Positions 14,555-18,474 of a stretch of 39,566 bases of DNA are shown here, in pieces. Below the pieces are notes generated by a model. That model did no database searches, was not told the DNA's origin, and saw only the letters and a program-made list of their open reading frames with translations. The translations under genes and the position numbers were made by a program. The stretch's first letter is position 1. Every line of letters begins with the position of its first letter. Source of the DNA: an uncultured Bacteroidota bacterium (lineage in GTDB: Bacteria; Bacteroidota; Bacteroidia; Chitinophagales; LD1); NCBI GenBank assembly GCA_903917755.1, contig CAIXBT010000278.1, positions 1 through 39,566 on the forward strand, in the 5' to 3' direction.

Positions 14555-15748
14555 ATGGACGCATACATCATAGACGCACTCCGCACTCCCATCGGCAAAT
14601 ATGCCGGCACACTCAGCACTGTCAGGCCTGATGATCTGGCCGCAAATGTGATCCGTGCTATCGTGGCGCGCAATCCCTGGCTGGATACAAATCAAATAGA
14701 GGATGTGATACTCGGTGCGGCGAACCAAAGCGGCGAGGACAATCGCAATGTGGGCCGTATGGCGGCACTGCTCGCGGGGCTGCCTGTCACGGTAGGCGGT
14801 ATCACAGTCAATCGCCTCTGTGCATCGGGCTTGCAAGCCATAGGCGATGCAGCACGCGCAGTACACGCAGGTGAAGGCAGTGTCTACATAGCCGGTGGCG
14901 TAGAAAGCATGAGCCGTGCACCGATGGTGATGAACAAGGCCACCAGTGCATTCGATCGCGGACATCAGATGTTTGACACGACGCTGGGCTGGCGTTTTAC
15001 CAATAAAAAATTTCCTGCAGACTATATCATCTCGATGGGCGAGACCGCAGAATGTGTAGCCAAGCAATGGAAAGTATCGCGCGAGGAGCAGGATGAATTC
15101 GCCTACCACTCACAACTCAAATACCAGAAAGCCCATGAAGAGGGTAGGTTCGCTGATGAGATAGTAGCTGTAGAAATAGAAAAAGGCAAGGGCGAAAAAA
15201 TAAACTTCATCAAAGATGAACATCCGCGCCTCTCTTCTGTCGAAGACCTCGCCAAGCTCAAACCGGCTTTCGCTAAAGACGGCAGCGTGACCGCGGGCAA
15301 CTCATCGGGCATCAATGACGGTGCTGCTGCTACCATAGTAGTGAGCGCCGATGTGGTCAAAAAACACAATCTCAAACCGCTCGCCCGCATAGTATCTATG
15401 GCTGTGGCAGGAGTGGAGCCCTCTATCATGGGTGTAGGTCCGATATTCGCGGTGCGCAAGGCGCTCGACCTTGCAGGCCTCAAGGTGTCTGACATCGGTC
15501 TCGTAGAACTCAATGAGGCCTTCGCATCGCAGAGCATAGCCTGTATGCGCGATCTGGGATTCGACCCAGCTATCGTGAATGTCAATGGCGGCGCTATAGC
15601 TATCGGCCATCCCCTCGGCTGCTCAGGTGCACGTATCACAGCTACGCTGCTACACGAGATGAAACACCGCCCTGAGGTAAAGTACGGTATCGCTACCATG
15701 TGTATCGGTGTGGGACAGGGACTGGCGGTCATTTACGAACGTGTGTAG
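14555..15748 (+). CDS. Acetyl-CoA acyltransferase, 3-oxoadipyl-CoA thiolase type
   Basis: A complete 397-residue degradative thiolase that cleaves a 3-oxoacyl-CoA with CoA. The nucleophile is C89 in NRLCASGLQA; H352 in IGHPLGCSGAR and C383 in TMCIGVGQG complete the active site. Features such as GAANQSGEDNRNVGRMAALLAGLP, VESMSRAPMVMNKATSAF and FDTTLGWRFTN are closest to the PcaF/PaaJ branch (beta-ketoadipate and phenylacetate pathways) that I know, but fatty-acid thiolases are near and no pathway genes flank it. Its TAG stop overlaps by one base a palindrome of the adjacent transposase island, and a relic of a second thiolase 3' end lies on the island's far side (16460-16516). Confidence 0.9.
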   Translation: MDAYIIDALRTPIGKYAGTLSTVRPDDLAANVIRAIVARNPWLDTNQIEDVILGAANQSGEDNRNVGRMAALLAGLPVTVGGITVNRLCASGLQAIGDAARAVHAGEGSVYIAGGVESMSRAPMVMNKATSAFDRGHQMFDTTLGWRFTNKKFPADYIISMGETAECVAKQWKVSREEQDEFAYHSQLKYQKAHEEGRFADEIVAVEIEKGKGEKINFIKDEHPRLSSVEDLAKLKPAFAKDGSVTAGNSSGINDGAAATIVVSADVVKKHNLKPLARIVSMAVAGVEPSIMGVGPIFAVRKALDLAGLKVSDIGLVELNEAFASQSIACMRDLGFDPAIVNVNGGAIAIGHPLGCSGARITATLLHEMKHRPEVKYGIATMCIGVGQGLAVIYERV

Positions 15749-15769
15749 AGACGCAAAATCTTGCGTCTC
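15748..15769. repeat. REP-like palindrome, copy 1
   Basis: Arms GAGACGCAA and TTGCGTCTC with loop AATC. It begins on the last base of the thiolase stop codon and could act as the transcript end of that gene. It is in the opposite orientation to copy 2, which follows 39 bp later, so the two make an inverted pair like the REP pairs of RAYT systems. Confidence 0.85.
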
Positions 15770-15808: not shown

Positions 15809-15830
15809 GAGACGCAAGATTTTGCGTCTC
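15809..15830. repeat. REP-like palindrome, copy 2 (inverted)
   Basis: Same GAGACGCAA-type arms; the centre reads CAAGATTTTG, the reverse complement of copy 1. It lies 26 bp before the transposase ATG, and the transposase frame runs open back through it (codons would give ETQDFASLQ), so an upstream start would include it in the protein. Confidence 0.82.
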
Positions 15831-15856
15831 TACAACGAATAAGCAAATTTACTGAA

Positions 15857-16411
15857 ATGGACTTATTTCGAAATAAATACAGGATCAATAGTACGCGATT
15901 AGCAGCCTGGGACTATAGTTCCAATGGATTCTATTTTGTGACTATCTGCACTAAAAACAAAGAACCCCATTTCGGAACAATACATAATACAAGCCATCCG
16001 GGTAATGAGACGCAAAATCTTGCGTCTCTACAGGCGACAGATATTGGCATGATAGCTTCTCAATATTGGACTGAAATACCAGTTCATTTCCCCTTTGTAG
16101 AATTGGACGAATTCATAATAATGCCTGACCATCTGCATGGGATATTATTATTCAATAAAAATGAGCAATCTACCTGGCAGCCCAATAAAGCAGGGCCGCA
16201 AACCCAAAACTTAGCTTCAGTAATTAGAGGTTTTAAAGCTGGCGTTAAGAAATATGGAACTATGAATAATCTAGATTTCAAATGGCAACCAAGATATTAT
16301 GACCGGGTCATCAGAAATAGTAATGAACTGGAAAGAATCAGGAAATATATTTCAGACAATCCTGGTAACTGGCTGTCCGAACAAGGCAACCTCGAAAATT
16401 TATACAGATAA
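15857..16411 (+). CDS. REP-associated tyrosine transposase (RAYT, Y1/IS200-like)
   Basis: A 184-residue single-strand transposase of the HUH/Y1 superfamily. The HUH motif is H92-L-H94 in IIMPDHLHGILL and the catalytic tyrosine is Y147 or Y148 in WQPRYYDRVIRN; the N-terminal YFVTICTKNKEPHFG strand and the C-terminal RKYISDNPGNW are also typical. I start at the ATG at 15857; the open frame extends upstream through copy 2 of the palindrome. Residues 51-58 (ETQNLASL) are encoded by an in-frame copy of the same palindrome, and residues 116-121 repeat TQNLAS with different codons. No frameshift is visible, so the enzyme may be active. It sits between palindromes at 15748, 15809 and 16434, as expected for a RAYT with its cognate REPs. 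Confidence 0.88.
   Translation: MDLFRNKYRINSTRLAAWDYSSNGFYFVTICTKNKEPHFGTIHNTSHPGNETQNLASLQATDIGMIASQYWTEIPVHFPFVELDEFIIMPDHLHGILLFNKNEQSTWQPNKAGPQTQNLASVIRGFKAGVKKYGTMNNLDFKWQPRYYDRVIRNSNELERIRKYISDNPGNWLSEQGNLENLYR
16007..16028. repeat. REP-like palindrome, copy 3, inside the transposase gene
   Basis: Identical to copy 1 over all 22 bases (arms GAGACGCAA/TTGCGTCTC, loop AATC) and located inside the RAYT gene in a frame that encodes ETQNLASL. It falls in a variable loop between the FG-T-I strand and the helix before the HUH motif, so the frame is kept. Confidence 0.88.
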
Positions 16412-16433
16412 TTGTATTTTGCATTCCATCGTA

Positions 16434-16455
16434 GAGACGCAAAATATTGCGTCTC
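16434..16455. repeat. REP-like palindrome, copy 4
   Basis: Arms GAGACGCAA/TTGCGTCTC with loop AATA, 22 bp after the transposase stop. It shares flanking bases with copy 1 (GTA before; CATC then GCG after), which may be the element's true edge. It separates the transposase from the thiolase relic. Confidence 0.85.
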
Positions 16456-16459
16456 ATCA

Positions 16460-16516
16460 GCGTCAATGTGTATCGGTGTGGGTCAGGGTCTGGCGGTGGT
16501 GTATGAGAGGTGCTGA
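16460..16516 (+). pseudogene. Relic of a thiolase 3' end
   Basis: From the ATG codon at 16466 to a TGA at 16514-16516, 51 bases translate to MCIGVGQGLAVVYERC, nearly the same as the last 16 residues of the intact thiolase (MCIGVGQGLAVIYERV at 15698-15748). The first 33 bases differ at two positions only; the last 18 differ more and use another stop. The two preceding codons (Ala-Ser) also fit thiolases, and then similarity stops at palindrome copy 4. No upstream thiolase sequence is joined to it, so it cannot be functional. Confidence 0.8.
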
Positions 16517-16601
16517 TGGTGCGCGCCCTTACAAATGACATCTACATTTTGAGATTTATATTGAGCATATTTTGGTTTCAAATAATTTAAAAATAGTCAC
16601 T

Positions 16602-17987
16602 ATGGAGGATTCGGAATTAGATATAGAAAAAATTGTTTGTAATAAATTTATTGATGCATTAAAGGAGAGCGAATTAATAACTCGGCCTCAGGATAAATGG
16701 AAAACTCCCATATTAATCAGAAGGTTTGATATAGTCATCTATAAAGAACCATATCCTTTGGCCGTCATTGAAGTAAAGGTAAGACTAGACAATAAAAATC
16801 TGCTAGCCAGAGCAACTGATCAAGTTAGATCAGCAATGTCAATAACCAATTCAAGGTATGGAATTGTAACTGATTCAAAAGAATACTTTATTTATGACAG
16901 AAATAAAAAAGAAGAAGATTTCGTACGCAAAAGTTTTGATGAAATTATTCATTCATTACTTCGTCCTGAAGAAATAAGAGTAAATGAACCTGATCGTCAA
17001 TTGGTTTTAGAAATAATTAAAAAATCTGCTCACCAGTTTTTAAATAATAATACAAGCTTTTTGAATTTTATTGATAGTGATTTAACTATTTCACAAATAC
17101 AATTCAATCAAAAGGAATCAGTTTTCTTTTTATCAGACGAATCCGTTAAAAAAGGAGAGATTGATAAATTTGAAAACATTTTTTTCAATAAGATTTTAGG
17201 AGATTTTATAGAAACAACCATTTGTCGGTATTCCTCTTTCAAAACCATTTTTGATATGATTAGTTACTTCTCGTTTAGAATGAATGGCTTGGCAGGAATG
17301 AATGATAAGACGGAAGTTAATTATGTGGAATCCTATCTTAACAAAGTAGAAAAACCGTATATCAAAGAACTTCCCGAAAACATAGAACAACTTAATAGGA
17401 GATATATAACATCATGTTCAAACATTAAAAGAAAGGACGATCTAACATTATGGAGATTATATTCAGAGGATGGCACAGGTGTGTGTTTGATTTTTACAGT
17501 TGATAAAACAAAACTAAATGAAAATGTTTTTATTAATAAAGTAAAATACGCAGATCGAGCAAATAAACATGCGGAATTGGAGTTTTTAAAACAAATCAAA
17601 GAAGATGTAGAGGCTACAACAGGTTTTGCCTTTGAGTTTAAAAAACTCGGATATTGGAAACATTTTTTTAAACCCTATGATTATTCTGTGGAAGAAGAAA
17701 TTAGATTGTTAATTATAGATGATGATTCATTACCAAAAATAAAGACGGATTGGGTAATGACATATACTCATTCTATAATTAATCCAATAATAGATTTTCA
17801 ACTTAACAATTCTAAATTCCCTATTAAATTAAATGGAATTATGCTTGGGCCTAAATGTCCAGAACAAGAAATAAATATGGTGCAGCTTAGAGAAATGATC
17901 CGAAAAAAATCAATTGATGCTAAATTAAAGGGAGTTGACATAGAAAATATACAAATTGAATTGTCAGGAATAAAGCACTATAGATAA
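16602..17987 (+). CDS. HsdR_N-like nuclease domain fused to a DUF2971-like domain
   Basis: A 461-residue soluble protein, clearly more AT-rich than its neighbours. Residues of about 1-110 resemble the N-terminal nuclease domain of type I restriction HsdR subunits: D43 in RRFDIVIYK, E57-V-K59 in LAVIEVKV (PD-(D/E)xK core), then ATDQVRSAM near Q74 and YGIVTDSKEYFIYD. Residues of about 195-440 resemble DUF2971: a CRYSSFKTIFDMISY start, GMNDKTE, ITSCSNIKRKDDLTLWRLY and GTGVCLIF. There is no helicase motor or methylase nearby. I start at the ATG at 16602; a TTG at 16572 is in frame. Its position beside a transposase in an island and its nuclease signature suggest a defence or mobile-element role, but the function is unknown. 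Confidence 0.75.
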   Translation: MEDSELDIEKIVCNKFIDALKESELITRPQDKWKTPILIRRFDIVIYKEPYPLAVIEVKVRLDNKNLLARATDQVRSAMSITNSRYGIVTDSKEYFIYDRNKKEEDFVRKSFDEIIHSLLRPEEIRVNEPDRQLVLEIIKKSAHQFLNNNTSFLNFIDSDLTISQIQFNQKESVFFLSDESVKKGEIDKFENIFFNKILGDFIETTICRYSSFKTIFDMISYFSFRMNGLAGMNDKTEVNYVESYLNKVEKPYIKELPENIEQLNRRYITSCSNIKRKDDLTLWRLYSEDGTGVCLIFTVDKTKLNENVFINKVKYADRANKHAELEFLKQIKEDVEATTGFAFEFKKLGYWKHFFKPYDYSVEEEIRLLIIDDDSLPKIKTDWVMTYTHSIINPIIDFQLNNSKFPIKLNGIMLGPKCPEQEINMVQLREMIRKKSIDAKLKGVDIENIQIELSGIKHYR

Positions 17988-18089: not shown

Positions 18090-18452
18090 ATGCCCTCAAC
18101 ACCCACCATATCCATAGCCCAGTCTTGGTTTGATGCATTCAATCAACACAACCTGGAAAAGCTGCTGGCGCTTTATGCTGACGATGCACAGCACTATAGC
18201 CCTAAGCTGAAGCTGCGCCAGCCGGAGACGAAGGGCCTCATCACCGGCAAGGATGCTTTGCGGTCATGGTGGCGGGATTCTTTTGAGCGATTGCCTACTC
18301 TGAGGTATGAGCCTTCGCGATTTATAGCAGATGATAATAGTATCTTTATGGAGTATACACGCTATGTCGACGGCGAAGATAGCATGACCATAGGCGAGGT
18401 GCTGGAGATCAGCGGTGGCCTGATTGTGGCATCACGGGTGTTTCATAGTTAG
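18090..18452 (+). CDS. NTF2-like / SnoaL-family protein
   Basis: A 120-residue single-domain protein of the NTF2-like fold (SnoaL/nuclear transport factor 2 type): AQSWFDAFNQHNLEKLLALYADDAQHYSP forms the first helices and strand, followed by GLITGKDALRSWWRDSFERLP and a C-terminal strand pair ending in ASRVFHS. Members are isomerases, hydrolases or ligand-binding proteins; no catalytic residues specific to one activity can be assigned. It is complete, with no signal peptide. A REP-like palindrome begins at the base after its TAG stop. Confidence 0.78.
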   Translation: MPSTPTISIAQSWFDAFNQHNLEKLLALYADDAQHYSPKLKLRQPETKGLITGKDALRSWWRDSFERLPTLRYEPSRFIADDNSIFMEYTRYVDGEDSMTIGEVLEISGGLIVASRVFHS

Positions 18453-18474
18453 GAGGCGCAAAATATTGCGCCTC
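18453..18474. repeat. REP-like palindrome, copy 5 with compensatory arm changes
   Basis: Arms GAGGCGCAA and TTGCGCCTC with loop AATA. Relative to the other copies the fourth base is G instead of A and the partner is C instead of T, so pairing is kept. It starts directly after the stop codon of the NTF2-like gene. Confidence 0.8.

Follow-up and report, generated by a model that had tools for sequence, protein, structure and literature searches.

A REP palindrome read in frame within the gene of its own RAYT transposase in an uncultured Bacteroidota bacterium

RAYT genes that carry REPs within their own coding sequences touch on the question of how REPs spread and how RAYTs remain matched to their REPs. 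In the main text of Quentin et al. (2018, PMC6006769), REPs lying in frame in tnpA_REP genes are described as a unique feature of TnpA_REP subclass 2.4, which corresponds to RAYT group 4 of Bertels et al. and is found in Bacteroidota and in scattered phyla. The same text places these REPs between the HuH motif and the tyrosine, a location worded as typical ("generally") and not as defining. REPs are also known from inside genes of many kinds, as are the RPEs of Rickettsia (Di Nocera et al. 2013, PMC3733652). In vitro, RAYTs from other groups cleave single-stranded REPs and join them, with GTAG influencing the sites used (PMC8266576).

Here, we present an analysis of a RAYT gene located in a 39,566-nucleotide stretch of DNA from an uncultured Bacteroidota bacterium (hereafter the window), together with the REP copies around and within it (Table 1). 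The encoded protein has the features of the Y1 HUH fold, including the HUH motif, the WQ and one catalytic tyrosine, and the top Foldseek match of its structure model is E. coli TnpA_REP (4er8, E 5.1e-7). Against the 184-residue protein, the profile NF047646 (REP_Tyr_transpos) gives an E-value of 6e-14 and 52.2 bits, which is below the cut-off of 80 bits, while Pfam Y1_Tnp (E 0.009) misses the protein at its cut-off when used alone. The palindromes flanking the gene are dispersed through the genome and carry GTAG feet (at 15745, at 16431 and, inverted, at 15830), in agreement with the GT[AG]G foot by which RAYTs are recognised.

Table 1. Positions of the RAYT gene, its REP copies and the second TQNLAS in the window.
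Feature	Position	Strand	Details
RAYT / TnpA_REP-like Y1 HUH transposase gene	15857..16411	+	184 aa, ATG at 15857; HUH motif PDHLH, WQ, Y164 in YISDNP
Core palindrome GAGACGCAAAATCTTGCGTCTC, inner copy (copy 3)	16007-16028	+	encodes ETQNLASL, residues 51-58
In-frame REP insert, residues NETQNLASLQ	16004..16033	+	core 16007-16028, CTAC foot 16028-16031; tip of the hairpin preceding the HUH motif (loop 1)
Flanking REP copy 1	15745..15769	+	core 15748-15769; GTAG foot on + strand; TAG of the foot serves as the thiolase stop codon
Flanking REP copy 2	15809..15833	-	core 15809-15830; inverted relative to copy 1, 39 bases apart (REPIN-like pair)
Flanking REP copy 4, variant (GAGACGCAAAATATTGCGTCTC)	16431..16455	+	GTAG foot at 16431, core from 16434
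Variant REP (GAGGCGCAAAATATTGCGCCTC)	18453..18474	-	CTAC foot on + strand, 3' side; directly after the stop of ORF 18090-18452
Second TQNLAS, residues 116-121	16202..16219	+	conserved start of the helix after HUH; no palindrome remnant

Subclass 2.4 is defined by clustering, and the window RAYT is set beside it here by motifs and features, with DHLH, WQ and YISDNP against the subclass motifs NH[IFV]H, WQ and YIxNNP; its close relatives (L021-L023) have NHVH or NHIH at the HUH motif. It shares with the subclass, as described in the main text of PMC6006769, the GTAG-footed flanking REPs and the presence of a REP in the tnpA_REP gene that leaves the frame unbroken, here at residues 51-58, and it is described here as resembling subclass 2.4 / group 4, not as a member of it. 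Unlike the inserts in that text, the insert of the window precedes the HUH motif and is common to a clade; it lies 39 residues upstream of the motif, and so not between HuH and Y, while most other relatives carry theirs after HUH. An in-frame REP in a RAYT is thus of an already known kind, whereas the pre-HUH site, the inheritance by a clade, the conservation at the DNA level, the paired stem changes and any tracking of the flanks are absent from the main text of Quentin et al.

Among the more distant systems, the RPEs and intragenic REPs of PMC3733652 are likewise short palindromes translated in frame and tolerated in flexible parts, with GTAG feet supplying TAG stops, but they reside in many unrelated host genes, the CGTC type apparently without a dedicated transposase, whereas in the window the host gene encodes the transposase of the repeat itself. 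E. coli TnpA_REP (4ER8) is the nearest solved structure and has the WQ after the HUH motif and the single catalytic tyrosine, but it is 19% identical, belongs to group 2 and has bulged REPs; IS200/IS605 TnpA (IS608, ISDra2) share the Y1 HUH fold and the recognition of hairpins, but serve true transposons with left and right ends. In the parts of the literature covered, we found no description of an in-gene REP for the former or of an in-gene copy of an end for the latter. A substrate that is also protein-coding sequence, and that shows paired stem changes, records RAYT-REP matching over time in a form open to testing, since the inner copies of different strains can be set against the outer ones, and the case shows how a protein can take up a mobile palindrome into its sequence.

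An earlier note, made from the sequence of the window alone, held that the third palindrome copy is identical to the first and yet encodes residues 51-58 of the transposase, and this was confirmed: the 22-base inner palindrome equals copy 1 exactly and equals copy 2 when inverted. Across the genome (4.05 Mb in 430 contigs), the REP pattern is found at about 14 places and the reversed-pattern control at none, and the copy in the RAYT is the sole one of the 14 deep within an evident gene. At the mRNA level, the inner palindrome is predicted to form a hairpin of -19.6 kcal/mol (z -3.1). A chance match or a misassembly as the source of the palindrome has negligible probability: the window does come from an assembly of 430 contigs, but zero matches are expected by chance in shuffled windows and the feature recurs in independent genomes, same-genus relatives and named isolates among them.

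At the same loop-1 site, the same-genus relatives G026 (69% identical) and G024 (61% identical) have NETQYLASLR and DKTQGIASLR, respectively, and Pontibacter burrus has LETQGIASLQ. In a tree of 115 RAYTs, the insertion or an apparently decayed form of it characterises a clade of 21 genes, mostly with one offset to xTxIG and one frame (xTxxxASLxxTxIG), four of the members (L061, L064, L121 and L122) having diverged so far at loop 1 that the insert cannot be recognised. About half of this clade preserves the palindrome as DNA, while in the others it has decayed and left a trace in the peptide, as in the Mucilaginibacter-type genes, where the palindrome is gone and QGISSLQ or QGITSLQ remains. Because the insert marks one clade, with position and frame shared by most members, a single old insertion is its most likely source. 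The reading of the first site as a REP that is translated as part of its own RAYT, in a hairpin at the protein surface, is supported. The close relative L022 has a further palindrome (L022:1082-1111) that forms the C-terminus of the RAYT (FVETHNYASLH), besides the copy in loop 1.

Where the palindrome persists, the insert is conserved at the level of DNA. When two genes share a residue, they also share its codon in 58 of 60 comparisons inside the insert versus 364 of 863 outside, these pooled figures coming from comparisons that share sequences and are not independent (single pairs, P 0.002 to 0.011), and synonymous divergence is 0 to 0.15 inside the insert and saturated outside. Four of the 12 stem pairs have changed on both sides, and the stem covariation of 0.226 compares with 0.068 after shuffling, with none of 500 shuffles as high and the best slid control at 0.045. 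Between G024 and G026, whose RAYTs adjoin the same neighbouring gene, the inner loop reads TACC in one and GGTA, the reverse complement, in the other, while the foot is unchanged, a difference consistent with inversion of the copy or with its exchange for an inverted REP.

The repeat-derived linkers that the earlier note mentioned for other RAYTs of Bacteroidota proved to be real, as perfect palindromes, with arms of 10 or longer, occur inside 66 of 115 RAYT genes, versus 0.8 expected under synonymous shuffling. Most of these palindromes lie after HUH (63, in loop 2), with 12 before it (loop 1) and one at the C-terminus; they vary among genomes, often equal the flanking ones and use all three frames. 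When each was compared with its own flank, 27 of 76 matched at 18/20 or better, and the own flank ranked in the top 5% of 114 loci for 32 of 76 genes (about 4 expected) and outside it for the remaining 44. In the sister species G024 and G026, the inner copies are unlike the REP type flanking their RAYT, so the match to the flank is not universal. With arms of 11 and one mismatch allowed, an inner REP is present at loop 1 or loop 2 in 80 of 113 genes, against 9.2 expected anywhere. Palindromes in loop 2 are absent from the whole loop-1 clade and present in 67 of 92 other genes, a distribution that may reflect a single historical event. A clean empty loop-2 site was not found among pairs of close homologues, nearly all of which have some palindrome there.

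The idea that loop 2 of the window's own clade is a decayed REP found no support, its residues (W, NK) being conserved and non-palindromic. Loop 2 of four other genes (L123, L133, L145 and L153) contains several full and partial REP copies with adjoining short tandem repeats, suggesting linker growth from REP fragments. A second RAYT in the same genome as the window (L019:1771-1998, contig C225) carries, in its post-HUH loop, 4.5 in-frame repeats of a 51-base unit (VTLAVTPLGTTESIDPV), and this array adjoins a different palindrome.

The sequence TQNLAS does recur at residues 116-121 with altered codons and without a palindrome, as the earlier note had observed; codons differ from those of the first site at most positions. 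The proposal that this second stretch is an echo of the palindrome was refuted, because (T/S)QNLAS is conserved in RAYTs without such a palindrome. The family motif here is PQSxNLASxIRG[FY]K, from which the window differs only by S to T, and homologues have PQSKNLASIIRGFK, PQSQNLASIVRGYK and similar in the same columns, other branches having SGSLSSIIRSFK or NTIGAIIRGYK without a gap. The pattern xQxx[ND]L[AGP][SAD] is present at this site in 47 of 115 RAYT genes and NLAS in 32 of 115; among the 47, 25 lack an inner palindrome with arms of at least 10, some of these, the window included, having one with arms of 9, and 17 have a palindrome that does not encode NLAS or NFAS. In the structure model, residues 119-136 form a confident helix with the second TQNLAS at its start. 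Given this position, and the occurrence of forms of the motif in RAYTs whatever their palindrome, the second TQNLAS is the family's conserved helix start after HUH with one residue changed, and is unrelated to the palindrome. Of the two sites placed in loops by the note, the first is indeed the tip of a surface hairpin, while the second begins a helix in the model; alignment of relatives over both revealed a repeat-related stretch at the first and a conserved core motif at the second. That an older REP insertion was retained here at the protein level is very improbable. The six residues are identical at both sites, and other Bacteroidota RAYTs hold palindromes just upstream in the loop, some of which (in L120 and L171) encode TQNLAS, but these two genes have the motif separately, and the stretch aligns without gaps to SLSS, TIGA and others at the same helix start in RAYTs with unrelated palindromes or none, so that the family alignment already refutes the idea. 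The dN/dS across the second TQNLAS is limited by synonymous sites that are saturated in most comparisons, even against same-genus copies. An older insertion kept in the protein does seemingly exist at the first site, in relatives with traces of the QGISSLQ kind.

We consider it likely that the inner palindrome goes back to an old REP insertion in its own transposase, at a loop that tolerates it, and that replacement has kept it in agreement with the flanking REPs. In an ancestor of the clade to which the window's RAYT belongs, the cognate REP would have entered the tip of the pre-HUH hairpin a single time and in frame, at a place where the peptide it encodes would be tolerated. The simplest origin would be that the REP entered its own RAYT gene while this was being replicated and that only insertions lying in frame within tolerant loops survived, and RAYT activity presumably made the insertion. 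In many lineages the inner copy would have stayed palindromic and been updated toward the surrounding REPs, probably via RAYT-driven strand transfer or recombination among REP copies, while in others updating would have ceased, the palindrome decaying to a peptide trace. Later replacement by neighbouring REPs would explain why the inner copy is palindromic and often matches its flank, and we infer that such replacement, and not selection on the hairpin, maintains it. The paired stem changes could alternatively come from selection on the hairpin or from repeated insertion at a hot spot. A hot spot at loop 1, receiving REPs independently in each lineage with only the in-frame ones surviving, would accord with the in-frame inserts at other offsets near the hairpin outside the clade (L167, L128, L180 and L182) and with the agreement of flanking and inner copies in several genomes; we regard it as improbable, however, as nearly all recognisable copies in the clade share one frame and lie at one distance from the xTxIG that follows, and the identical place is also occupied by decayed copies whose peptides are related.

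It is also unlikely that the inner palindrome persists because it acts as a signal in nucleic acid; in this reading, its own RAYT would bind it, either as a hairpin in the mRNA or as single-stranded DNA, and expression would be limited or the gene marked out to the cognate enzyme. Its preservation as DNA with paired changes, the strength of the mRNA hairpin, and the occurrence of an inner REP at either loop in most of the family, never at loop 2 within the loop-1 clade, would all suit a signal. Nevertheless, several relatives have a decayed palindrome and an intact gene, the distribution over the loops may stem from one historical event, and replacement from the flanks explains the same data. 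A broader proposal, which we find rather unlikely, is that the in-gene REP is a built-in part of the family, an own substrate within the coding sequence that would remain palindromic by selection or by enzyme-driven replacement and would tie the gene to its cognate REP or let the protein control its own message.

Downstream of the RAYT, and before a SnoaL-like gene, ORF 16572-17987 combines an HSDR_N_2-like N-terminal part with a DUF2971 domain, and no tblastn match to it was found in the corresponding regions of same-genus relatives. The RAYT of the window directly follows the thiolase gene, whereas those of G026 and G024 (L101 and L102) are neighbours of an RlmL-like methyltransferase gene and lie 2 to 8 kb away from the thiolase gene. 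The last approximately 50 bases of the thiolase gene are present twice, at 15698-15748 and 16466-16516, on either side of the RAYT unit (85% over 41 bases). Because the thiolase tails of relatives resemble the downstream copy, the gene end now in use may have arrived with the RAYT.
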